A stretch of 13,598 bases of DNA from Streptomyces sp. NRRL F-6676. GTDB lineage: Bacteria; Actinomycetota; Actinomycetes; Streptomycetales; Streptomycetaceae. The position numbers and the translations under genes are program-made. A model generated the notes under the pieces. It had not been told where the DNA came from and did not search any database. It worked only from the letters and a program-made list of their open reading frames with translations. Positions 779 to 13,598 of the stretch are shown piece by piece (positions within the stretch are counted from its first letter, which is position 1; every line of letters begins with the position of its first letter). The DNA is taken from contig NZ_JOHS01000090.1 of the NCBI RefSeq assembly GCF_000725625.1, forward strand, positions 1-13,598, read 5' to 3'.

Positions 779-782
779 GCTG

Positions 783-855
783 TGCCCCCGGCAGGATTCG
801 AACCTGCGACACCCGCTTTAGGAGAGCGGTGCTCTATCCCCTGAGCTACGAAGGC
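783..855 (-). tRNA. tRNA-Arg (anticodon CCU)
   Basis: A 73-nt cloverleaf on the minus strand. The acceptor is GCCTTCG pairing with CGGGGGC (two G-U pairs at positions 4 and 5). The D stem is GCTC/GAGC, the anticodon stem CCGCT/AGCGG with loop CTCCTAA, the T arm GCAGG-TTCGAAT-CCTGC, and the discriminator A. The anticodon CCT lies at plus-strand 820-822 and reads AGG codons. No CCA is encoded, as is common in Streptomyces. The 3' end faces the integrase remnant, so this gene is the likely attachment site of the lost element. The two G-U pairs fall where an element-borne 3' end would meet the chromosomal 5' half. Confidence 0.95.
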
Positions 856-2444: not shown

Positions 2445-4112
2445 TCAGGACCCCGGCAGGGTGTTCACGTACGGGACGCCCGCCGACGCGAACCCCGTCG
2501 CCGCGGCCTCCGCCGTCTTCGCGGACACCGTGGCGCCGGAGGCGTAGTAGAGCCAGTCGACCCGCATGTCCCATGTGCGGGACGCCCCCTTGAAGGGGAG
2601 GTCGATGAACCAGGTGCTCATGTTGATCGTCATGCGTTCGCGGGGGAAGTGACGGCTGCCGCTGGTGAAGAGGGTTTCTCCGTCCACGGAGTAGGTGGTC
2701 CTCCCCTTCACCGCGGTGATCGCCAGCGTGTGCCAGCCGCTGAGCTTGCGGGTGTGGGAGCTGGTGACGCGGTCGTTGCGGGTGCTGTCGCGCCAGCTGG
2801 TGGTGTCGAGACGGGGACCCAGGCTGCCCCAGCCGCCGTTCGGCATGTACTCGTAGTCGAGTTCGCTGTACTTGGACGAGGTGTGGTCGGGGGAGATGGT
2901 GAAGAGGGACTCGGCGATGTGGTCGCCGTCCTTGCCGCTCGTCGGTTCGTCGCCGAAGTACACCCGGGCGACGAGCGTGCCGGTGAAGAACGTGGGCCGG
3001 GCGGTGTGGAACTCCGCCTGCCGGGTGCCGCGCTTCGTCCCGTCCGTGCGGGCCACCAGCCGCAGTGCCTGGCCGCCGTCCCCACGGTCCTCCTCGCTGC
3101 TCCCGGTGCTCCCGCTGCCGCCGGTGCTCCCGCTGCCCCCGGGGCTCTCGCTGCTTCTGTCGTCCCCGCTGCTCCCGGTGCTCCCGCTGCTCCCGTCGTC
3201 CCCGCTGCTCCCGCCGTTCTCACCCGCCGGGAAGCTGACGCCGGACGTCGACCACGTGCCCTTGATGCCCGGGCCGCCCTCGTCGTCGCGGACCTCCCAG
3301 CCGTTCGTCTTGAGCGCCGGGTCGTGCGGGCCCGCGTAGGCGAAGTCGTCGAAGAGGACGGACTTCGGGAGCGCGGCCGCGGAGGCCCCGGCCCCCGGCG
3401 GTGCCGTGCCGTCCGGTTCCTCGCCCCACACATGGGTGCCGCCGAGGTAGGCGGTCACCAGCTTCGACGCCGAGTACGTGGTGTCGTCGGCGTTGAACGA
3501 GCGGTCGTTGGCCTGGTTCAGCTTCGCGTGGTCGACGCGGTAGAGCTGTAGTCCGATGCCCTGGCTGGTGCCGCCGGGCGCCAGGGTCCCCGTACCGGCC
3601 GTGAAGCCGATCTCGAGGTAGTGGTCGGCCTTCTCCGCGGGCTTGTCGAAGGCACCGGTGCGCTGGGTGACGTGCGAGCAACCGAGCGCCGTCTGCACGC
3701 AGTTGGAGCCGTACGCGGAGTCGCCGTCGGCCGTGTAGTAGTACCGCAGCCTCACGTCCGCCAGGTTCACCGTCTTCCCGGAGGTGTTGATGATTTCCAG
3801 CCACGGCGCGGCCACCGCCGAGGTGGCCGGCGCGCCGGTACGGTAACGGACCGTGAGCGCGGAGGGGTCGCCGTGCGAGGACCGCCACAGCGAGCGGAAC
3901 AGCACACCGCCCGCCGCGACGACGCACACGCACAGCACGAGGACGAACACGTTCCGTCCCCGTCGGGGGGTGCCGCGGCGGCGGCTCGGGCGGGTGTCGC
4001 GGCGGCTCACGCGGATATCCCGGACGGCCGCGGGCGCGTGGCCTGGGGCATCTGTCGCACAGCGCGGGCACGGCCGTTTCTCTGGCTGATCACCGGCGCA
4101 TCCTAGGCACAC
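2445..4112 (-). CDS. Membrane-anchored CBM3 / GH16-like protein
   Basis: 555 residues from a GTG start. Order: CxxC at residues 2-5 and 15-18 (zinc-ribbon-like), an Arg-rich stretch, one membrane helix at ~54-72, a CBM3 domain at ~86-238 (PWLEIINTSGKTVNLADV, RYYYT, YLEIGFT, NDRSF), then a concanavalin-A-like domain at ~245-535. The latter holds ELDYE at 417-421, matching the ExDxE form of the GH16 catalytic motif, with the nucleophile and acid/base glutamates both present. CBM3 binds crystalline cellulose or chitin-like chains in known families, and GH16 enzymes cleave or transfer beta-glucans and related polymers. The topology predicts a cytoplasmic N-terminus and an extracellular catalytic part. 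A Gly/Ser/Asp insert (~297-346) interrupts the GH16-like domain. Divergent from the GT2 gene, suggesting action on that enzyme's product. The start is uncertain (weak Shine-Dalgarno) and activity is untested. Confidence 0.8.
   Translation of the reverse strand: MCLGCAGDQPEKRPCPRCATDAPGHAPAAVRDIRVSRRDTRPSRRRGTPRRGRNVFVLVLCVCVVAAGGVLFRSLWRSSHGDPSALTVRYRTGAPATSAVAAPWLEIINTSGKTVNLADVRLRYYYTADGDSAYGSNCVQTALGCSHVTQRTGAFDKPAEKADHYLEIGFTAGTGTLAPGGTSQGIGLQLYRVDHAKLNQANDRSFNADDTTYSASKLVTAYLGGTHVWGEEPDGTAPPGAGASAAALPKSVLFDDFAYAGPHDPALKTNGWEVRDDEGGPGIKGTWSTSGVSFPAGENGGSSGDDGSSGSTGSSGDDRSSESPGGSGSTGGSGSTGSSEEDRGDGGQALRLVARTDGTKRGTRQAEFHTARPTFFTGTLVARVYFGDEPTSGKDGDHIAESLFTISPDHTSSKYSELDYEYMPNGGWGSLGPRLDTTSWRDSTRNDRVTSSHTRKLSGWHTLAITAVKGRTTYSVDGETLFTSGSRHFPRERMTINMSTWFIDLPFKGASRTWDMRVDWLYYASGATVSAKTAEAAATGFASAGVPYVNTLPGS
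3075..3225 (-). repeat. Gly/Ser/Asp-coding low-complexity stretch inside the GH16-like domain
   Basis: The plus strand repeats GCTCCCGGTGCTCCCGCTGC-like 9-12-bp motifs. Read on the coding strand, they give about 50 residues of SSGDD, GSTGSS and GGSGSTG. The stretch separates the segment WSTSGVSFPAG from QALRLVARTDG, which should be neighbouring strands of one beta-sandwich, so it is probably a surface loop that grew by slippage. Confidence 0.7.
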
Positions 4113-4363
4113 TCCGCCCAGTGCTCCACACTGCGGTCATCCCGGCCCCTGTGGTGTGGTTTTCGTCACTGTCGCTCAGTGTCGCTCGCTGTGCCTTATC
4201 GACTCCCAGCATCCGAATTATCAGCCTTTTGAGTGGTAAGGCCGGGCGCATTCAGATGGTTTGGGGTTCAACTACGCAGCCGTCGTGCCACGGAGGGTCG
4301 CGGTCTTGCCCTGGGCTGTGCGATCACCATGAGGTAGTTTCCGGCCAGGGGGTTTCACTTCAC

Positions 4364-4397
4364 GAACACAACTGAACACAACGTAGGGGCGTTGTGT
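4364..4397 (+). promoter_or_regulatory. Direct and inverted repeats at the GT2 gene start
   Basis: GAACACAAC is repeated at 4364-4372 and 4374-4382, exactly 10 bp apart. The second copy overlaps a perfect 8-bp inverted repeat, ACACAACG (4376-4383) and CGTTGTGT (4390-4397). The right arm includes the GTG start at 4396, and the spacer holds the AGGGG Shine-Dalgarno (4385-4389). It could be an operator or an RNA hairpin masking the start. The divergent gap (4113-4395) is visibly lower in GC than its neighbours; I could not place promoters in it with confidence. Confidence 0.4.
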
Positions 4398-5682
4398 GAA
4401 TGGACCGGGTGGGGGGCTGGCAGTGGCCGGGACAACGGTGCCGAGCGTGGACGTCGACACGCAGACACAGGCGGACATCGACGACACGCGGACGCGGGCG
4501 AACGCCGAGACGCGGAACGCCGCCCGCAGCAGGCATCGCCGAGGGCGCGGCGCGCAGTCCGGGGCGGGGCGCGGTACGCGGCCCGGGGTGCCGGACGAGC
4601 TGGTCTACGAGACCGTCGTCCTCGTGCCGGCGCGCAACGAGGAGGTCGGCGTCCTCATGTCGCTGAACTCGCTCGCCGCGCAGACCCGCCGGCCCTCGCT
4701 CATCGTCGTCGTGGTCAACAACTCCACCGACCGCACCGAGGAGTACGCGCGCCGGTTCGCCGAGGACGAGAAGACTCCGCCGACGGTCGTCCTCACCTTC
4801 GACAACAACCCGCACAAGAAGGCGGGCGCCCTCAACTTCGGCCTGCGCTGGCTGCGCGAGGCGGTCGGCGGGCGGCTCAACAACCGGGTGGGGCACGTCC
4901 TGGTCATGGACGCCGACACCGAACTGCACCCGCGGTTCGTCGAGCGGGCCGGCAATGTCATCGCCTCCGACCCGGAGCTCGGCGGCGTCAGCGCCGCCTG
5001 CCTCGGCCGCACCGATCTGTGGCGCAGCCCCTGGCAGCGGTTCCTGCTCGGCATGCAGATCATCGAGTACGGCCGTGCCGCCAACGCGCGCTACCGCCGC
5101 GACGTGCACACGATGTCCGGAGCCGGCTCCTTCTACCGGGCCGAGGCCCTGCAAGGGCTGATCGACTGGCGCGGCGAGGTCTTCTGGGAGGACCACCGCA
5201 ACCTCGTCGAGGACTACGAGACCACGCTCGCCCTCAAGGAGTCCGGCTGGAAGGTGACGGCCAACCAGCTCTGCATCGCCTACACCGACCTCATGCCCAC
5301 CCTCCGTGAACTCATCCAGCAGCGCGAACGGTGGAGCCGCGGAACCGTGGACACCCTGCGCCGGCGCGGCTGGACCAAGTTCACCTGGCACTCCATCGCC
5401 ACGATGATCATGGGGCTGATGGGTTTCGCCTACATCCTCGGATGGGGCGCCAAGCAGCTCGTACTGCTGGCCGTGCACGGCTTCTCCCACCAGCCGCTCC
5501 TGGTGGCGCTGTTCGCCTTCTGGGTCGTCTATCCCGCGCTGCGGGTGCGGAACCTGGGCTGGAAGGCGATGCTCGTCGAGGCGCTGCTGATCCCGGAGCT
5601 GGTGTACACGGTCGTCCGGGCGTACTGGCTCGTCGCGTCGATCCTGAAGTCGTACGTGACGCGCGTGTCCGCGTGGAAGTGA
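4396..5682 (+). CDS. GT2 family membrane glycosyltransferase (processive type)
   Basis: 428 residues. A charged, probably disordered N-terminal ~65 residues precede a GT-A domain: VVLVPARNEEVGVLMSLNSL, a metal-binding DADTE at 172-176, the acidic VEDYET around 271-276, and QRERW at 309-313, the QxxRW motif of processive beta-polysaccharide synthases such as cellulose, hyaluronan and poly-GlcNAc synthases. The C-terminal ~100 residues contain about three or four hydrophobic segments. It should take a nucleotide sugar and extend a polymer at the membrane. The GTG at 4396 has AGGGG 6 nt upstream; GTGs at 4423 or 4438 are possible alternatives and would trim only the disordered tail. It is divergent from the CBM3/GH16 gene. 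No PilZ or deacetylase domain is visible. The product sugar cannot be told from sequence. Confidence 0.88.
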   Translation: MNGPGGGLAVAGTTVPSVDVDTQTQADIDDTRTRANAETRNAARSRHRRGRGAQSGAGRGTRPGVPDELVYETVVLVPARNEEVGVLMSLNSLAAQTRRPSLIVVVVNNSTDRTEEYARRFAEDEKTPPTVVLTFDNNPHKKAGALNFGLRWLREAVGGRLNNRVGHVLVMDADTELHPRFVERAGNVIASDPELGGVSAACLGRTDLWRSPWQRFLLGMQIIEYGRAANARYRRDVHTMSGAGSFYRAEALQGLIDWRGEVFWEDHRNLVEDYETTLALKESGWKVTANQLCIAYTDLMPTLRELIQQRERWSRGTVDTLRRRGWTKFTWHSIATMIMGLMGFAYILGWGAKQLVLLAVHGFSHQPLLVALFAFWVVYPALRVRNLGWKAMLVEALLIPELVYTVVRAYWLVASILKSYVTRVSAWK

Positions 5683-5957
5683 CCCGGTGAGGCGGAGGAG
5701 CGGGCTTCGCAGCGGTCCGGTGAGCCGGAGGAGCCGGGTTCGCAGCGGTCCGGTGAGGCGGAGGAGCCGGGTTCGGAGCGGTCCGGTGAGGCGGAGGAGC
5801 CGGGTTCGGAGCGGTCCGGTGAGGCGGAGGAGCCGGGTTCGGAGCGGTCCGGTGGGCCGGAGGAGCCGGGTTCGCAGCGGTCCGGTGGGCCGGAGGAGCC
5901 GGCTTCGCAGCGGTCCGGTGAGGTGGAGGAGCCGGGCCGGAGCGGTCCGGTGAGGCG
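5683..5957 (+). repeat. 33-bp tandem repeat, about eight copies
   Basis: The unit TCCGGTGAGGCGGAGGAGCC plus 13 further bases is repeated with few substitutions from just behind the GT2 stop to about 5957. Because 33 is 11 codons, each copy keeps the frame. In the GT2 frame it reads RSGEAEEPGSE/Q, and that frame stays open from 5683 to a TGA at 5995-5997. The last copy has lost one base near 5934-5937. One other forward frame and minus-strand frames are also open, so openness alone does not prove coding. No spacers, hence not CRISPR. Confidence 0.85.
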
Positions 5958-6236: not shown

Positions 6237-8378
6237 TCAGAACCGATCCACCGTCGCCCGGGCGGGGTCCGCCGCCGCCGGATCCGGCGCCCGGGTGATC
6301 GACTCGCCGTTCGCGAGCGGGATCGTGGACAGCAGGCCCGGCGGGAGGGCGAAGGCGTCGGCCAGCGTCGCCAGGTGCGGGGCCGACTGTGCCGTCGCCG
6401 CGTCGAGGGCGCGCGGCAGGGACCGCACCTGGTCGGGGGTGAGCAGGCCCTCCGCCAGCAGATCGCCGGTGTGCGCGCGGAGGCGGCGCAGGAGGAAGAG
6501 CCGGCACAGCGCGCGCAGGACGGCCCGGGCCGTCGGGTCCGTGGCGCGGTCGGCCGCCGTGAGGAACGCGTCGGCGGCCACCCGGCAGGCGTGGACCTCG
6601 ACCATCTCCAGTGCCGGTGCCGACGTGGCGTTCCAGCGGCCCATCGGGTCGCCCGACGGGCCCTCGCGCAGGGCGGTCCGGGCGCGGTTCTGCCAGATCG
6701 ATTCCGCGTGGAGCAGCAGGTCGCGCAGGAAGGCCGGGTCGTCGAGATCACCGGGGCCGCCGGGACCGGCGAGGCCACCGGGAGGGGCGGCGAGGCCGCT
6801 GGGGTCGCCGGGGCCGCCGGTGTCGCCGGGGGTCGTGCGGGCGGGCGGGAGCGGGACCCGGTGGCCGAAGACCATCTCCGACGCCGCCTTCACCCAGATC
6901 ACCAGGTTGTCGCCCTCGGCCGTGATGCCGCCCTCGATGCTGGCCGGCAGGTCGGAGATGCCGTTGGCCGGGAACAGGCCCTGGGCGCCGCAGCGTTCGC
7001 GGCACTCGATGGCGATGTCCCGGGCCTGCCAGGTGATCCAGCCCTTCGCGACCGCGGCGAGCCGCTCGACCTCCTCACGGTCCTCGTCGCTCCGGGCGGC
7101 GAACCGGTCCACCACCGCGCGGTGCAGGAACGTCATCGCGTACGCCGTCGCCAGCGCGTCGAGCAGCCGGCCGTGGTGGCTGCGGTGGGCGGCGACCGGG
7201 ATGCGCTCGCCCGTGCGCGGCCCGGCGATCCGGCGGCTGTGCGCGTGCCGGACGGCGAGGGTGACCGCGGCCCGGGCCATGCCCAGCGTGCCGGCGCTCA
7301 TGCACAGCTTGCCCATCGTGACCCGGCCTATCGAGCGCAGGAACCGCTTGCGCCGGTTGCCGAGCGTGCTGGTCAGCGTGGAGTCGGGGGCCAGCCGTCC
7401 GTGCTCGCCCTGGAGCAGCGCCTCGCGCGGCAGCCGGACGTGGTCGAAGGAGGTCAGACAGTGGTCGACGGGCGTGCCGGTGCGCTCGGGCAGCCGGCGG
7501 ACCGTGACGCCGGGCAGATGACCGCGCGCGTCGCTGAGCGGGGTGAGGAAGAGGAAGATGCCCTGGTCCTCGCCGTCGATGAGGAGGCGGGCGGCGACGA
7601 CGGCCGTCTTGGGGCCGCCGGTCAGACTGGTGTTCGGCATGAACTTGGCCGCGCCCGGCGTCGGCGTGTGCAGGTCGAAGCCGCCGCTCGCGCGGTCCAG
7701 TACGGCGACGGTCTCCATCGCGGCGACGTCGTTGCCGTGCTCCAGCTCCGTGCAGAGGAACGTGCCGACGCGGCGCATGGCGGCGAAGGGGGACAGATCA
7801 CGCGTCCCCGTCGCCCCACCGTCGTGGTCGCCCTGGTGGTCGACCTGGTGGTCGTGGTCGACGAGGCTGCCGAGGAACAGGTTGTAGTGGATGCTCGCCA
7901 GCGTCGTCAGACCGCCGTCCACCGGGCCGATCCACTCGTGCAGCGCCGCCAGCCGGTGCGGATCGGCCGCGAACGCCACGGGGGCGGCGGGAGCTTCGGC
8001 GGTCAGCGCGTCGTTGAGGAGGCGCAGACGGTCGTACGACAGCGCGGCGCGCTCGGCGGGGGAGAGGCCGGGGCGGTAGGTGAAGGCCGGGCCGGCGACG
8101 AGCTCCCGCCAGGTGCCGTGGGTGCGGTCGGGGTCGGGGTCCGCGAAGAGCAGGCGCGTCAGATCCGCCCGGACGGCGGCCTCGGCATCGGCCGCGGCGT
8201 GGGAAGTTCCGGCATCGGCCGCGGCATGGGGAGTTCCGGCATCGGCGCCCGGGTCCTCGGCACCGCCGAGCGCGGCGTCCGGCGCGGACGGCACCCCGGG
8301 GGCCGGTCTTCCCGACGGGGGCGGGAGGAGCCGGCGGGATGCTTCCGTCCGTAAGGCCTCGGACGTCGTGACGGTCAT
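6237..8378 (-). CDS. aco: Acyl-CoA oxidase of an avenolide-type hormone pathway
   Basis: 713-residue acyl-CoA oxidase/dehydrogenase. Family marks: TELEHGNDVAAMET from residue 210 (ACOX form TELGHG), GGFDLHTPTPGAAKFMPN, SFDHVRLPREALL, and CRERCGAQG followed by TAEGDNLVI with E488 in the EGDN box. A C-terminal all-alpha domain follows a Gly/Pro linker at about 515-545. It oxidises an acyl-CoA with FAD. In S. avermitilis, Aco makes the butenolide hormone avenolide, and the neighbours here (receptor, P450, second receptor-like gene) match that locus. ATG at 8378 with a GGGGGGAA ribosome site 4 nt upstream. Codon 9 is TTA. Oddities: a 9-residue repeat near the N-terminus and a His/Asp-rich insert (DHDHQVDHQGDHD) around residues 172-186. 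The gene faces away from the receptor across a 341-bp control region. Confidence 0.85.
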   Translation of the reverse strand: MTVTTSEALRTEASRRLLPPPSGRPAPGVPSAPDAALGGAEDPGADAGTPHAAADAGTSHAAADAEAAVRADLTRLLFADPDPDRTHGTWRELVAGPAFTYRPGLSPAERAALSYDRLRLLNDALTAEAPAAPVAFAADPHRLAALHEWIGPVDGGLTTLASIHYNLFLGSLVDHDHQVDHQGDHDGGATGTRDLSPFAAMRRVGTFLCTELEHGNDVAAMETVAVLDRASGGFDLHTPTPGAAKFMPNTSLTGGPKTAVVAARLLIDGEDQGIFLFLTPLSDARGHLPGVTVRRLPERTGTPVDHCLTSFDHVRLPREALLQGEHGRLAPDSTLTSTLGNRRKRFLRSIGRVTMGKLCMSAGTLGMARAAVTLAVRHAHSRRIAGPRTGERIPVAAHRSHHGRLLDALATAYAMTFLHRAVVDRFAARSDEDREEVERLAAVAKGWITWQARDIAIECRERCGAQGLFPANGISDLPASIEGGITAEGDNLVIWVKAASEMVFGHRVPLPPARTTPGDTGGPGDPSGLAAPPGGLAGPGGPGDLDDPAFLRDLLLHAESIWQNRARTALREGPSGDPMGRWNATSAPALEMVEVHACRVAADAFLTAADRATDPTARAVLRALCRLFLLRRLRAHTGDLLAEGLLTPDQVRSLPRALDAATAQSAPHLATLADAFALPPGLLSTIPLANGESITRAPDPAAADPARATVDRF
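8184..8253 (-). repeat. 27-bp in-frame repeat in the aco N-terminus
   Basis: Units at 8184-8210 and 8211-8237 differ at two positions, and a third begins at 8238. They encode ADAGTPHAA-type nonapeptides in the Ala-rich leader ahead of the oxidase domain. This is probably neutral length variation, since the segment lies outside conserved motifs. Confidence 0.7.
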
Positions 8379-8472
8379 CGAGTTCCCCCCTGGGGTGGGT
8401 CGGTCTCCTGGTGTGCGGCGGCCGGTGTGGAGAGTGGGACCGGAACGTGTCGATCCGGATACCCGGACGTCG

Positions 8473-8502
8473 AAGATAAGGACCGGCCGGTTTTCTTTTC
8501 AA
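8473..8502 (-). promoter_or_regulatory. aco promoter
   Basis: On the minus strand, TTGAAA (8502-8497), an 18-bp spacer, then TATCTT (8478-8473). This gives a predicted transcript start near 8466 and a leader of about 88 nt. It is very AT-rich for this DNA and has the same form as the two receptor-gene promoters. Confidence 0.6.
8474..8495. promoter_or_regulatory. Autoregulator-element-like site in the aco promoter
   Basis: A 22-bp site centred on the palindrome ACCGGCCGGT (8482-8491), lying between the -35 and -10 of aco. Compared by eye with the ArpA-type consensus (ACC-N8-GGT with AT-rich flanks), about 15 of 22 positions agree. A receptor bound here would block RNA polymerase. Confidence 0.55.
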
Positions 8503-8624
8503 GGGCCACAACCGGCATATGCCTCTCCGACTTCGTGAAGATCGTAGAGGGGCAAGGGGCGGGAGGGTACGGAGGGGTGCAGAAGCCGGAACAAGCGGGG
8601 CATCGGGGGCTGTTCCCGGCAGGG

Positions 8625-8654
8625 TTGAAAAAACCGTGCGGCTGGTTTTACTGT
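8625..8654 (+). promoter_or_regulatory. Promoter of the butenolide receptor gene
   Basis: TTGAAA (8625-8630), an 18-bp spacer, TACTGT (8649-8654). The predicted start is near 8661, about 59 nt before the GTG at 8720. Confidence 0.6.
8629..8650. promoter_or_regulatory. Autoregulator-element-like site in the receptor promoter
   Basis: AAAACC-N8-GGTTTT (8630-8649) has perfect 6-bp arms at the 8-bp spacing of gamma-butyrolactone-receptor operators, inside the -35/-10 spacer. About 13 of 22 positions fit the ArpA-type consensus. It implies autorepression by the receptor. Confidence 0.6.
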
Positions 8655-8660
8655 CCGGGC

Positions 8661-8699
8661 ATTCCTTGAGGATGTTCCTCGCGGACATTCCTCGAACAG
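8661..8699 (+). repeat. Three 13-bp repeats in the receptor 5' leader
   Basis: RTTCCTYG recurs at 8661, 8674 and 8687, exactly 13 bp apart, beginning at the predicted transcription start. The first two copies carry small palindromes (CCTTGAGG, TCCTCGCGGA). Role unknown: a second operator or an RNA element are both possible. Confidence 0.4.
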
Positions 8700-8719
8700 A
8701 TGAACGGGGCGGGGTGCGA

Positions 8720-9427
8720 GTGGCGCGGCAGGAGCGGGCCATCCGGACGCGGCAGGCCATCCTGGTCGCCGCGGCCGAGGTGTTCGACGAGGTCGGATAC
8801 GAGGCGGCGACCATCTCCGACGTGCTGCGCCGGTCGGGGGTCACCAAGGGCGCCCTCTACTTCCACTTCGCGTCCAAGGAGGCACTGGCCCAGGAGGTCC
8901 TGGCGGCGCAGGTCTCCTCCCTGCCCCGGGTGCCGGAGCAGGACCTGAAGCTCCAGGAGTCCCTGGACGAGGCGCTGTTGCTCGCCCATCTGTTGCAGGG
9001 CGGCACCGGCGACCCCATGGTCCAGGGCAGCGTGCGCCTGACCGTGGACCAGGGCTCGGCCAAGGACAACCTCAACCGCCGGGTGCCGATGCGGGACTGG
9101 ACCGAGCACAACCGCGCACTGTTCGAGGAGGCCAGACACCGGGGCGAGATCCTGGCGCACGTCGATGTCGCCAACCTCGCGCGGCTCTTCGTCGGCGCGT
9201 TCACCGGCGTGCAGGTGCTCTCGCGGATCATGACCGACCGCGCCGACCTGCCGGAACGCGTCGCCGACCTCTACCGCTACCTGATGCCGGCCGTCGCCGC
9301 GCCCGGCGTCCTGGTCCGCCTCGACTTCTCGGCCGAGCGGGGACCGAAGGTGTACGAGGCGGCACTGCGCCGCAGAGAGGCGGAAGCGGAAGCGCGGACC
9401 GACAGCGAGGCCGCCGCGCCCGGCTGA
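8720..9427 (+). CDS. avaR1: Gamma-butyrolactone/butenolide receptor, TetR family
   Basis: 235 residues starting ARQERAIRTRQ after the initiator, the usual opening of ArpA/ScbR/AvaR1 receptors. The TetR helix-turn-helix spans about residues 10-57 (TISDVLRRSGVTKGALYFHF). The ligand domain follows, with RLTVDQ and W127 in RDWTEHNRALFEEARHRGE at the place of the conserved ligand-pocket tryptophan. Such receptors sit on operators as dimers and leave when the hormone binds, inside the cytoplasm. GTG 8720 is chosen by homology and a GGGG ribosome site; GTG 8714 would add two residues. The neighbours are aco (divergent) and the P450, as in the avenolide locus. The operator-like site in its own promoter predicts autoregulation. 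Family is firm; avenolide as the ligand is inferred from context. Confidence 0.88.
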   Translation: MARQERAIRTRQAILVAAAEVFDEVGYEAATISDVLRRSGVTKGALYFHFASKEALAQEVLAAQVSSLPRVPEQDLKLQESLDEALLLAHLLQGGTGDPMVQGSVRLTVDQGSAKDNLNRRVPMRDWTEHNRALFEEARHRGEILAHVDVANLARLFVGAFTGVQVLSRIMTDRADLPERVADLYRYLMPAVAAPGVLVRLDFSAERGPKVYEAALRRREAEAEARTDSEAAAPG

Positions 9428-9575
9428 CCCCAACGGGCCCCGCCGCCCCGCCACGTGCCGCCCGCCACTCGCCGCTCATCCCGACCCGCTCGCTCTGCCC
9501 TGCTCGCCCCGTCCCGCCCCGCGCTGCCCCGCCCCGCGCCACCTCCCGGCGGCGCCCACACCTGCCCGATCGAAC

Positions 9576-9579
9576 GGAG
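9576..9579 (+). promoter_or_regulatory. Ribosome binding site of the P450
   Basis: GGAG 7 nt before the ATG at 9587 fixes this start over the upstream extension of the frame. The 159-bp gap behind the receptor is strongly C-rich (CCCCGCCCCGC runs) and shows no operator-like site or clear promoter, so the P450 may be read from the receptor promoter. Confidence 0.55.
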
Positions 9580-9586
9580 TGCACGG

Positions 9587-10879
9587 ATGGACCCCGACGT
9601 TTGCCCGTACGCCCTCGACGTCGCCGGACGCGACCCGGCCGGGGAGGCCGCGCACCTGCGGGCCATGGGCCCCGCCGCGCGCGTCGAACTGCCCGGCGGG
9701 GTCACCGCCTGGGCGGTCGTGCGGCAGAAGTACCTCAAGCGGCTGCTCATGGACCCCCGCGTCTCCAAGGACGGCCGCCGGCACTGGCCGGCGTTCGCGG
9801 CCGGGGAGATCGGCCCGGACTGGCCGCTGTACCCGTGGGTGGCCAACGAGAACATGCTCTTCTCCTACGGGGAGCACCACGCGCGGCTGCGCCGCCTGGT
9901 CGCCGCCGCGTTCACCGCCCGCCGTACGCAGGCGATGCGGCCCCGGATCGAGGAGATCACCGAGGCGCTGCTCGACCGGCTCGAAGCGCTGCCGCCCGGC
10001 CAACAGGTCGACCTGCGCGCCGAGTTCGCCAACGTGCTGCCGATGCGCGTGATCTGCGAGCTGTTCGGGGTCGCGGAGGAGTCGCGTGAGCGGCTGTGCG
10101 GCCTGCTCGACCTGGTGTTCGGTACGGCGGTGCCCGGCGCGGAGATGGCGGCGGCGCAGCAGGAGGTGTTCGGGATGCTCGCCGAACTGGTCGCCGAGAA
10201 ACGGGCCCGTCCCGGCGACGACCTCACCTCGGCGCTCATCGCGGTCCGCGACGACGACGAGGAGGGGGACCCCGGAGCGGGCACCGCCCGTCTCACCGAG
10301 CCCGAACTGCTCGGCACGCTCTACCTGATGATCGCCGCCGGGCAGGAGACCACCTGCACGCTGCTCACCAACGCCGTCGCCGCGCTCTGCGCCGACCCGG
10401 AGCAGCGTGCGCACGTCCGGGCGGGGCGCGCGGACTGGGCGGACGTGGTCGAGGAGACCCTGCGCGCGCACGGGCCCGCCGCCTACTCGCCGATGCGGTT
10501 CGCCGTCGAGGACATCGACCTGGACGGCGTACGCATCGCGCGCGGCGAGCCCATCCTGGTCAACTTCGCCGCGGCGGCCGTCGATCCGGAGGCGTACGGG
10601 GAAAGCGCCGAGGGCGGCGAGGGCAGCGAGGGTGGCGACGGCGTGGCGGCCTTCGATCTGCTGCGGCCGGGCCGCCGCGAGGACCTGGTCTTCGGGTACG
10701 GGGCCCACCGCTGCCTGGGCGCGCCGCTGGCCCGGCTGGAGGCGACGACCGCGCTCGCGGCGCTCTTCGCCCGCTTCCCGGATCTGGAGTCTGTTCTTCC
10801 GGTGGAGGAGCTGGGGCGGGTGCCGTCCTTCATCGTCAGCGGATATGCCCGGCTTCCGGTCGTGCTGCGTACCGACTGA
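9587..10879 (+). CDS. cyp17: Cytochrome P450 of an avenolide-type pathway
   Basis: 430-residue bacterial class I P450. Visible marks: the oxygen-binding I-helix AAGQETT with A251, G252, E254 and T255; the K-helix ExxR at E290-R293; and the heme loop [10 protein letters not shown] with the thiolate ligand C376. It should hydroxylate or oxidise an acyl intermediate using ferredoxin and its reductase, neither of which is encoded here. In S. avermitilis, Cyp17 works in avenolide synthesis and lies beside the receptor and aco, as in this window. Odd: a Gly/Glu-rich insert (about residues 338-355) between DPEAYG and FDLLRP is some 13 residues longer than usual before the heme loop. P450 identity is certain; the hormone role rests on neighbourhood. 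Confidence 0.88.
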
Positions 10880-10900
10880 GCTGCGACGAAGGGGCGTTCA

Positions 10901-10927
10901 CCCGGCGCGCGGCGGGCGCGCGCCGGG
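10901..10927 (+). terminator. GC hairpin after the P450
   Basis: CCCGGCGCGC (10901-10910) and GCGCGCCGGG (10918-10927) form a perfect 10-bp stem with a 7-nt loop, 22 bp past the P450 stop. There is no T-run. It separates the P450 transcript from the promoter of the next regulator. Confidence 0.6.
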
Positions 10928-10972
10928 CGCCTCCGGGTGCGCCCGTCCGCGTCTCACGCCTTGTGCGCCCGC

Positions 10973-11002
10973 TTGAAAACAGCGCGAACGGTTTGTTAGT
11001 TT
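10973..11002 (+). promoter_or_regulatory. Promoter of the second receptor-like gene
   Basis: TTGAAA (10973-10978), an 18-bp spacer, TAGTTT (10997-11002). The predicted start is near 11009, leaving a leader of about 25 nt. It has the same layout as the aco and first receptor promoters. Confidence 0.6.
10975..10996. promoter_or_regulatory. Autoregulator-element-like site before the second regulator
   Basis: The right half GGTTTGT (10990-10996) is a good receptor half-site; the left half has ACA where ACC is expected. About 13 of 22 positions agree with the ArpA-type consensus. It lies in the promoter spacer, so one or both receptors may repress this gene. Confidence 0.45.
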
Positions 11003-11033
11003 CGCTCGACCCTCCAGCAGCCCGGAGCGACCG

Positions 11034-11723
11034 ATGGCCAAGCAGGAACGTGCGGTACGCACGCGGAACGCGTTGATCGAGTCCGCCGCCGAACTGTTCA
11101 CCCGGGACGGTTTCGAACTCGCCTCCCTCGCCGGGATCAGCTCCCGGGCCGGGGTGAGCAACGGGGCGTTGCACTTCCACTTCGCCAGCAAGGCGGCGCT
11201 CGCCGCGGCGGTGGGCCGGGCGGCGGCCGAGCGGTTCGACCGGATGACGGCGGCGGAGCGGCCGTCGCCGCAGTACGGGGGCTCGTTGCAGGCGCTCGTC
11301 GACGCGAGCCACGCCCTGCTGGACGGGCTGGCCCACGACGCCGTACTGCGCGCGGGGTTCGACCTCAGCGACGGTACGGCGGTGGGGTCCGGGGAGCGGG
11401 AGGACCTGTACGCGCGCTGGCGGGAGTGGGTGGAGCGGGCCGCCGCCCGGGCCGGCCGCGAGGCGGTGCTGGCCGGGGACGTCCAGCCCCGGGACCTGGC
11501 GACCGCGGTCGTGGGCGCGACGGTCGGCTTCGTCGCGCTCGGCGGGCACGACGGGCGCTGGCTGGGCCGGCCCACCCTGACCCGGTTCTGGACGCTGCTG
11601 CTGCCCCGGGTGGCCGCGGGCCCGGTACGGCGCGCGCTGGTGCCGGCCGGGCGTCGGGCGGAGCCGGCCCGGGACCCGGCGGTGTACGGCCGCGCACCCC
11701 GACCGGCACCGGCGACACCGTAG
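11034..11723 (+). CDS. Second gamma-butyrolactone-receptor-like TetR regulator
   Basis: 229 residues opening MAKQERAVRTRNALIESAAELF, with the TetR helix-turn-helix at about 10-57 (SRAGVSNGALHFHFASK). The ligand domain keeps a tryptophan at the family position (W129 in YARWREWVERAA) but the rest diverges from the first receptor. The C-terminus is a long Arg/Pro/Ala tail. ATG 11034 has GGAG 6 nt upstream. In this family many loci pair a true receptor with a pseudo-receptor that answers antibiotics or other signals (AvaR2, JadR2 and BarB types); the position after the P450 resembles avaR2. Whether it binds a hormone cannot be seen. An operator-like site in its promoter puts it under the same control. 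Confidence 0.82.
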   Translation: MAKQERAVRTRNALIESAAELFTRDGFELASLAGISSRAGVSNGALHFHFASKAALAAAVGRAAAERFDRMTAAERPSPQYGGSLQALVDASHALLDGLAHDAVLRAGFDLSDGTAVGSGEREDLYARWREWVERAAARAGREAVLAGDVQPRDLATAVVGATVGFVALGGHDGRWLGRPTLTRFWTLLLPRVAAGPVRRALVPAGRRAEPARDPAVYGRAPRPAPATP

Positions 11724-11822: not shown

Positions 11823-13598
11823 TTACACGCTCGGTACCCGCCGGAACCGTCCCGCCACGTGCAGGTCCGCCTCGATACGGGCGGCCGTCTCGCGCAGCCG
11901 GGGGAGGATCTCCGTCTCGCACGCCTCGGCGGTGCGGCGGCCGCTGTGCAGGGCGACGTTGACCGCGGCGACCACCCGTCCGTCGCGCTCCCGCACGGGT
12001 ACGGCCACCGACCGCAGCCCCTCCTCCAACTCGCCGTCGACCAGCGCGTACCCCTGCCGCCGTACGCCGTCCAGGATCACCCGCAGCCGGTCCGGGTCGG
12101 TGACCGTGCGCCCGGTCGGGGCCGGCAGCACGGCCGGGAGGCGCGGGTCGGGGCGGCCGGCCAGCAGGACCCGGCCCAGCGCGGTCGGGTGGGCGGGCAG
12201 CCGGGTGCCGACCGAGACATGGACGCTCAGCACCCGGCCGGCGGAGGCCCGGGCGACGTACTGGATGTCGTCGTCGCCCGTGAGGACCGCGAGCGAGGAC
12301 GACTCGTGCAGGTACTGCGAAAGCGCCGTCAGATGCGGCTCCGCGATCTCCGCGAGCGTCGTGCGGGACAGCGGCGGGAAGCCGAGGCCCAGGACGCGCG
12401 GGGTGAGCCGGAAGCCGCGGCCCTGCGCGGTGACGCAGCCGAGGTGGCGCAGGGTGATCAGTGCCCGGCGCGCGGTGGCCCGGGCGAGCCCGGTGGCCTC
12501 GGCGACCTCGCTCAGCGTCAGCTCGGCGCGGCCCTCCCCGAACGCGGTGATCACCGTCAGCCCCCGGGCCAGCGACTCGACGAACTCCCGGCCCAGCTCC
12601 TGCTTGGACGCGCCGGTCCACCGGGCGAGCCCGGACGCCGGTGCGGGGGAGGGCGCCGCCGGCGGGGCCGCGGCCAGCTCCCGCTCCATCGCGGCGACCG
12701 CCGTGCGCAGCCGGGGCAGCAGGCTCTCGCGCAGGTCCTCGGCGGTGTGCCGGCGGGTGTGGCTGACGATGCTGACGACGCAGGCGATACGGCGGGCGGC
12801 GGCGGTCCCGGAGCCCGGCGCGTCCGGTGCCGGTTCCCGGACCGGCATGGAGAGGGCGACCAGGCCGGGTTCGATGAGCTGGTCGTCCAACGCCCAGCCG
12901 TCGCGGGCGGCCGTGGCGGCGCGCTCCTCGAAGTCGTCGCCCGGGGCGTCGCCGGTGGCGCCGGCCGGGGGGCGGCTGCGGGCCGGGACCGCCGGGAAGC
13001 CGCGGTCCTCGGGGTCCGCCGCGCGGCGGGCGCGCCAGCGCGCCCAGTCCGCCTCGTCCCACTCGGTCGCGAACAGCGGGCCCGGGGCGGTGCGCTCGGC
13101 GGGCAGCAGATCGCCGATGCGGAAGCTGAGCGACATCGCGCGGCGGCGGGTGGCCTGGTGGATGAAGCGGATGCCGTCCTGGTCGGGGACGGCGAGCGAG
13201 ACGGACTCGTCGAGCTCGTCGGCGAGCGCGTCCGCGTGGCCGTCCAGGAGCCGGGGCAGGCGCAGGGCCGCGAGGTAGGCGTTGCCGAGTTCCGCCAGAC
13301 GGGGGGCGACGAGGACGTCGCGGTGCTCCAGGCGGACGTAGCCCATGCGGGCGAGGGTGGCGGTGATGCGGTCGACGGTGGAGCGGGCGAGGCCGCTGGA
13401 GCGTTCGAGGGCGCTGAGGGAGCAGGTGCCGTTCGCTTCTGTGAGACGGCGGAGGACGGCGATGCCGCGGATCAGGGGGGCGACGGCCTCCGCGGGGACG
13501 CCGGGGGCGTCCGCGCGGAGGCCGTCGCCCCCCTGATCCGCGGCATCGCCGTCCTCCGCCGTCTCACAGAAGCGAACGGCACCTGCTCCCTCAGCGCC
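11823..13598 (-). CDS. Double IclR-family regulator, 5' end missing
   Basis: The frame is open from the window edge to a TAA at 11823-11825. Going downstream: winged helix one (about 13480-13330: RGIAVLRRL, CSLSALERSSGLARSTVDRI, LARMGYVRLE), IclR effector domain one (about 13310-12700), an Ala/Pro linker, winged helix two (about 12590-12400: ARGLTVITAFGEGRAELTLS, EVAEATGLARATARRALITL), and effector domain two (about 12380-11840) with YVARASAGRVLSVHVSVGTR and HPTALGRVLLAG. IclR regulators of aromatic-acid catabolism such as PcaR and PobR resemble the second half. Each normal IclR protein has one such unit, so this is an internal duplication or fusion. An ATG at 13346 lies inside the first recognition region and is not the real start. 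Bases beyond about 13504 belong to a palindrome and may be artefact, so the true N-terminus is unknown. Target genes are not visible. Confidence 0.85.
   Translation of the reverse strand, partial: GAEGAGAVRFCETAEDGDAADQGGDGLRADAPGVPAEAVAPLIRGIAVLRRLTEANGTCSLSALERSSGLARSTVDRITATLARMGYVRLEHRDVLVAPRLAELGNAYLAALRLPRLLDGHADALADELDESVSLAVPDQDGIRFIHQATRRRAMSLSFRIGDLLPAERTAPGPLFATEWDEADWARWRARRAADPEDRGFPAVPARSRPPAGATGDAPGDDFEERAATAARDGWALDDQLIEPGLVALSMPVREPAPDAPGSGTAAARRIACVVSIVSHTRRHTAEDLRESLLPRLRTAVAAMERELAAAPPAAPSPAPASGLARWTGASKQELGREFVESLARGLTVITAFGEGRAELTLSEVAEATGLARATARRALITLRHLGCVTAQGRGFRLTPRVLGLGFPPLSRTTLAEIAEPHLTALSQYLHESSSLAVLTGDDDIQYVARASAGRVLSVHVSVGTRLPAHPTALGRVLLAGRPDPRLPAVLPAPTGRTVTDPDRLRVILDGVRRQGYALVDGELEEGLRSVAVPVRERDGRVVAAVNVALHSGRRTAEACETEILPRLRETAARIEADLHVAGRFRRVPSV
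13410..13598. repeat. Near-perfect 189-bp palindrome at the window end
   Basis: Bases 13410-13503 and 13505-13598 are reverse complements about 13504. Apart from the central bases, the only mismatch I find is 13495/13513. The left arm is coding sequence for the first IclR helix-turn-helix. The centre is a natural small inverted repeat, GGACGCC-GGG-GGCGTCC (13496-13512). A coding exon copied back on itself right to the end points to fold-back synthesis or an assembly error. Confidence 0.9.

Follow-up and report, generated by a model that had tools for sequence, protein, structure and literature searches.

The window analysed here is the whole of contig C86 (NZ_JOHS01000090.1, 13,598 nt) of Streptomyces sp. 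NRRL F-6676, whose assembly comprises 8.12 Mb in 166 contigs and is 99.99% complete. Positions 6237 to 11723 carry a putative avenolide-type butenolide hormone locus, made up of an acyl-CoA oxidase gene, a receptor gene, a cytochrome P450 gene and a second receptor-like gene of the TetR family. A first-pass annotation had likened this make-up to the avenolide locus of S. avermitilis, and the open reading frames, domains, span and orientation were all as it described them. The genes and predicted autoregulatory elements (AREs) are as follows.

6237 to 8378, minus strand: Aco-type acyl-CoA oxidase, 713 aa (open reading frame with Pfam ACOX_C_alpha1 and ACOX domains)
8470 to 8503, minus strand: predicted ARE, some 90 bp ahead of the start codon of aco (26/34 bases of acoARE)
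8627 to 8652, no strand assigned: predicted ARE upstream of the receptor gene (differs from the 18-bp AvaR1 consensus at 1 base, whichever strand is read)
8720 to 9427, plus strand: AvaR1-type butenolide receptor/repressor, TetR family, 235 aa (TetR_N domain; GTG start inside a longer open frame)
9587 to 10879, plus strand: Cyp17-type cytochrome P450, 430 aa (Pfam p450 domain; ATG start inside a longer open frame)
10975 to 10998, plus strand: predicted ARE upstream of the second TetR gene (1 mismatch to the AvaR1 consensus)
11034 to 11723, plus strand: AvaR3-type receptor homologue, a pseudo-receptor-like TetR protein, 229 aa (TetR_N domain)

The oxidase and receptor genes are divergent, and the receptor, P450 and second TetR genes share one direction. 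The GTG start of the receptor gene was picked by its match to AvaR1. The receptor scored 209.3 bits and the second TetR 157.4 bits against the NCBIfam ScbR-family model (cut-off 150); these were the only two genes of the genome over the cut-off, the next scoring 72.7 bits.

Proteins, operators and conserved gene order

Comparison with Aco, AvaR1 and Cyp17, which the first-pass annotation had named as a check, gave a match for each protein. The receptor was identical to crystallised AvaR1 (PDB 6wp7) at 182 of 229 residues (79%), the oxidase to P0144 at 449 of 631, and the P450 to P0269 at 312 of 408 and to P0272 at 310 of 410. These last three, and the AvaR3-like P0029 and P0032 used below, were assigned to S. 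avermitilis by source label, not from type-strain gene records.

The best 80 of 111 confirmed oxidase loci were fetched, and a receptor was counted as present above 250 bits and a second TetR above 100 bits, so that the tables keep 31 and 25 loci, respectively. All 31 loci with a receptor also had a P450 match, and because 31 of the 80 carry both relatives the arrangement is not attributed to chance; the proposed synteny check thus bore out the grouping of oxidase, receptor and P450. The P450 gene of L011 is on the opposite strand, about 4 kb past the receptor. A second TetR match was present in 25 of the 31, differing in place or strand in L011 and L025. Of the six loci without one, L022, L023, L026 and L027 have less than 1.6 kb past the P450 gene before the contig end, and L007 and L024 have more. 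The 49 loci with no receptor above 250 bits were L009, at a contig end, and 48 with oxidase identities of 48-55%. Of 101 genus genomes, this one among them, 10 had a receptor match at 1e-60 or better.

Two arrangements among the fetched loci stand apart. In L028 (S. echinatus), two AvaR1-type receptor genes flank the P450 gene, one per side, beside one oxidase gene. In L044, L047 and L048, a lower-identity oxidase has a P450 40-41% identical to that of the window 1-3 kb away, with no receptor above 250 bits.

Fifteen receptor positions, taken from the ligand and DNA contacts named in PMC7347384, were compared with AvaR1. Fourteen were unchanged, Q64, T108, W127, V158, F161, T162 and Q165 among the residues retained, and the single change was T131N. 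Gln64, Thr108 and Trp127, which are given as conserved across 90 receptors (PMC7347384) and define the AvaR1 type here, were all present. Arg5, a further DNA contact in PMC7347384, lies outside the 15 compared positions; position 5 is Glu in the numbering used here. The 31 syntenic receptors had Asn (16), Thr (12), Gly (2) or Ser (1) at residue 131, and Thr131 does not define the locus class, since 19 of the 31 lack it. In the tree, AvaR1 and the window receptor fell in a group of seven rows (support 90/78) inside a surrounding group of eleven (100/96). Within the seven, Asn131 was seen only in the window and in L001, with Thr in AvaR1, L002, L003, L006 and L008.

In an ungapped comparison, 26 of the 34 bases of the published S. 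avermitilis acoARE (appendix table of PMC7347384) recurred at 8470 to 8503 on the minus strand. The highest count among 20 shuffled versions of the intergenic stretch was 17, and the next-best place in the window, within the methyltransferase gene, scored 21. Allowing up to two mismatches, the AvaR1 18-bp consensus (PMC5744401) had six matches in the window versus 1.07 expected, a count reached by 0 of 200 shuffles. The three AREs, upstream of the aco, receptor and second TetR genes, account for five of the six when read on one or both strands, and the sixth lies at 4338. AvaR1 is described as targeting aco, avaR1 with co-transcribed cyp17, avaR2, avaR3 and aveR (PMC5744401). The same 24 bases of the receptor-gene ARE occur in L001, and palindromes related to the second-TetR ARE precede the orthologous gene in several relatives. 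A site of at least 19/34 was present between oxidase and receptor in 29 of the 31 syntenic loci (the receptor-side site in L021 and L028); no site between these genes reached 19/34 in L023 and L024. The operator and residue rows for L028 are based on the receptor copy more distant from the oxidase.

The exact 18-bp consensus had no match in the genome, each window site having at least one mismatch. A looser pattern matched the receptor-gene ARE and C2:213258, which was not assigned to a promoter and is no better than chance, as a backward-read control also gave one match. A sequence-only profile was built from 22 hand-picked AREs, and 150 of 4581 candidates were scored with it. Its hits were the site before aco, that of the receptor gene (on both strands) and C5:170892, which lies within an open reading frame. 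The profile score of the aco site (34.4 bits) is inflated because the site is itself in the profile, and 26/34 is the independent figure. Since the scan missed the site at 10975 to 10998 despite its being among the 22, and scored only that share of the candidates, it neither found nor excluded distant targets. SARP-type BTAD domains gave 11 matches in the genome, none tied to an ARE.

The second receptor-like gene had been taken for an AvaR2 counterpart, and is instead of AvaR3 type by its slot and its grouping in the tree. The S. avermitilis order is aco (sav_3706), avaR1 (3705), cyp17 (3704), avaR3 (3703) and avaR2 (3702) (PMC5744401); in the window the gene directly follows the P450 gene, as sav_3703 follows sav_3704. 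The tree placed the protein with P0029 and P0032 (support 100/94), which were named AvaR3-like from their source label and long insert; rows with long branches (e.g. L029_TET2, L011_TET2) are unsure. It was identical to each of the two at 130 of 211 residues. Its isoelectric point (10.6) is close to those of the AvaR3-like proteins (10.8-11.0), versus 5.8 for the receptor. AvaR3 is described as having a 75-aa extra stretch (PMC5744401), and the corresponding region is 41 residues long in the window versus 108 and 126 in P0029 and P0032 and at most 66 in 25 aligned relatives. The window protein is thus of AvaR3 type by place and tree, though it lacks the insert of about 75 aa. Among the lactone-contacting positions, Gln64 is replaced by Ala, Thr108 by Ser and both Thr162 and Gln165 by Val, with Trp127 kept, and because these contacts are lost the protein probably does not read a butenolide. 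The slot, the tree, the isoelectric point and the lost contacts speak against AvaR2, whose own sequence was outside the comparison. The protein probably acts downstream, like AvaR3 in S. avermitilis, which reportedly promotes avermectin by a mechanism described as unknown (PMC6930871).

The EGDN motif was kept in 33 of 33 aligned oxidase rows, and its Glu is presumably the catalytic base. The oxidase was the single match at 1e-10 in its own genome, which has no second Aco. The proposed role of Aco is to introduce the C2-C3 double bond of the butenolide (PMC7554373). The P450 carries the heme-Cys motif, and its closest relative of solved structure was CYP154A1 (343 bits). Inserts in both enzymes, which had been read as leaving room for a variant hormone, do exist. 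The oxidase linker (residues 505-550) has 46 residues in the window and 55 in the S. avermitilis-labelled Aco, with a range of 19-80 over 33 rows; an insert at 176-196 has 21 residues in the window only and 8-9 in the other 32 rows. The P450 insert has 36 residues in the window, 47 in L001 and 23-24 in 32 of 34 rows, so that its greater length is special to this lineage. All of these inserts are low-complexity, and with a linker so variable in length they lend no support to a variant hormone.

The first-pass annotation had preferred a butenolide to a classical gamma-butyrolactone because it saw no AfsA-type synthase in the window, and this held genome-wide. The AfsA domain had no match in the 8.12 Mb genome, in a search that matched 48 of 61 genus genomes (own included in the 61), so that no AfsA-dependent gamma-butyrolactone, SRB or furan system was recognised. 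Of the autoregulator kinds considered, this strain retains only the avenolide route; the search did not extend to other kinds of signal.

Comparable loci and flanking features

As far as the fourth gene, the locus has the same genes in the same order as that of S. avermitilis. In both, the aco and receptor genes diverge and AREs precede the genes for aco, the receptor and the AvaR3-type protein; the proteins are 62-79% identical (to S. avermitilis-labelled proteins or AvaR1). The locus differs in that the window lacks avaR2 and the genome lacks a third ScbR-family gene over the cut-off. The AvaR3-type protein has 229 aa without the long insert, whereas the AvaR3-like proteins of S. avermitilis have 281-299 aa with it. 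The receptor carries T131N, and the AvaR3-type gene is followed by one for a double IclR-type regulator, read from the opposite strand.

Proteins named S. griseoaurantiacus and S. jietaisiensis were among the best matches (P0125 at 74%; L001 at 75-76%). L001, from S. griseoaurantiacus JCM 4763, shares N131 and has close relatives of the receptor (91%), P450 (87%), second TetR (93%), oxidase (75%), IclR-type regulator (88%) and methyltransferase (79%), measured on tblastn pieces. In contrast to the window, it has no match above 60 bits to the glycosyltransferase (GT2) and cellulose-binding (CBM3) genes, and its oxidase and P450 loops have other lengths. Between its oxidase and methyltransferase genes lies an open reading frame resembling a short-chain dehydrogenase, as judged by eye. 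Receptor/aco/cyp sets were tabulated in 2020, counted as 90 genomes including S. griseoaurantiacus M045 and S. jietaisiensis (PMC7347384), and the S. griseoaurantiacus locus appears there as SGM_6043-6045. Among the papers listed in a search on the S. griseoaurantiacus signal, which had most subscription papers outside it, only PMC7347384 contained that spelling of the name.

A receptor, a P450 and an acyl-CoA oxidase also stand close together in S. fradiae (tylP/orf16*/orf18*) and S. pristinaespiralis (spbR/snbU/snbX) (PMC7554373). These sets are in or beside antibiotic clusters; none was recognised on the 13.6 kb contig, on which no cluster-finding program was run. In S. albus J1074, an oxidase and a P450 (XNR_2339/2340) likewise serve an avenolide-like compound (PMC5575351). 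There, unlike here, the avaR1-like gene XNR_4681 (31% identity) is not adjacent by number, its deletion reportedly had no metabolite effect, and an unclassified regulator, XNR_3174, represses the butenolide genes (PMC5575351).

Other features of the window flank the four genes.

782 to 855, minus strand: tRNA-Arg (CCT), near an integrase-like piece
11823 to 13346, minus strand, in a frame open to 13598: double IclR-type regulator of the PcaR/PcaU family (362.7 bits versus a cut-off of 284.75)

The IclR-type gene is convergent with the second TetR gene and nearly whole in seven of the 80 fetched loci (L001, L002, L003, L005, L008, L010 and L019); its open frame holds a further HTH match ahead of the start that was called. 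Inside this gene, the contig's final 85 bases repeat exactly, in inverted orientation, the sequence that begins at 13410 (13410-13598), so that the contig closes in a fold-back resembling an assembly artefact. At the other end, 138 to 855 holds a C-terminal piece weakly resembling a phage-type integrase (23.9 bits, below the cut-off of 27.1), and may mark the boundary of an integrated element close to the hormone locus. Between these lie two divergent genes (2445-5682), one for a GT2 glycosyltransferase and one for a cellulose-binding protein of CBM3 type that contains Gly/Ser-rich repeats, neither with a match above 60 bits in L001. Just after the GT2 gene comes a tandem array of 33-bp units (5684-5957; 8.3 copies, 92% matches).

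Proposed circuit and alternatives

The genes, their kinship, the conserved contact residues, the ARE sequences, the synteny and the failure to find AfsA were observed directly. On the basis of protein identity, ligand contacts, operators, synteny and the AfsA search, the locus is read as of avenolide rather than gamma-butyrolactone type, and we hold it very likely to be an avenolide-type butenolide hormone locus, its product, binding, release and targets being deduced from sequence. In the circuit proposed, the oxidase would desaturate a fatty acyl-CoA, the P450 would then oxidise the desaturated product, and closure would give a 4-alkyl butenolide. A dimer of the AvaR1-type receptor would sit on the AREs and silence aco, the receptor gene together with the P450 gene that follows, and the AvaR3-type gene. 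Accumulating hormone would enter the receptor pocket and the receptor would leave the DNA; a positive loop would then raise hormone synthesis, and repression of the AvaR3-type regulator and of antibiotic genes would be lifted.

Loss of a receptor-active signal in snbU and scyA1 mutants speaks for such a circuit (PMC7554373, PMC7670052). Several points weigh against it. Residue 131, the contact to the C10 hydroxyl of avenolide, is Asn here and Thr in AvaR1. No target was placed outside the locus, the pattern and profile scans giving one further site each, neither of them assigned to a promoter. The homologous ScyR1 of S. cyaneogriseus binds the scyA1 promoter region with scyA1 expression unaltered (PMC7670052), and loss of the P450 SnbU raises the pristinamycin yield of S. 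pristinaespiralis (PMC7554373). The last two results indicate that the circuit differs between strains.

A sub-case of the avenolide-type reading keeps the circuit and supposes a butenolide whose tail differs in oxidation or shape, Asn131 being the receptor's match to it. Thr131 of AvaR1 hydrogen-bonds the C10 hydroxyl (PMC7347384), and if there is any hint of a variant hormone its source is this residue, which is Asn in the window and L001 and Thr in AvaR1 and four relatives. However, Asn can bond a hydroxyl too, and it is common, standing in 16 of the 31 syntenic receptors with a ligand known for none of them here. As a prediction from sequence, Asn131 permits but does not show a variant tail, and we regard one as a tentative option, somewhat less likely than not. 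A more specific picture combines the sole detected autoregulator system of a genome without an AfsA match, a compact two-regulator locus, a changed-tail butenolide, a receptor altered from Thr131 to Asn and an AvaR3-type partner without a lactone role; as a whole it is rather unlikely.

It is very improbable that the oxidase and P450 serve ordinary beta-oxidation or the tailoring of an unrelated metabolite, with the TetR proteins as local regulators of that pathway. The solved-structure matches of the oxidase were general acyl-CoA oxidases, the best of them peroxisomal (120.9 bits), and the 48 fetched loci of lower oxidase identity (48-55%) carried no receptor match above 250 bits. At oxidase identities of at least 57%, however, 30 of 31 loci had an AvaR1-like receptor and a P450, the exception being L009, whose contig ends 160 bases before the oxidase; moreover, the receptor is 79% identical to AvaR1 with its lactone contacts kept, and the acoARE is at the orthologous place. 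A classical gamma-butyrolactone system in which the oxidase and P450 play no part would suit a receptor of the ScbR/ArpA family, but the AfsA search that matched most genus genomes and not this one leaves it scarcely credible.

The avenolide-type locus adds a further member to an already well-described class, such sets being carried by related strains in number. In S. avermitilis, avenolide triggers avermectin production at about 4 nM (PMC5744401). The present strain, in which a single Aco, a single AvaR1-type receptor and no AfsA were found, would be a simple host for learning what one autoregulator circuit controls. The split between Thr131 and Asn131 among close relatives offers a direct handle on how receptors distinguish butenolide tails.

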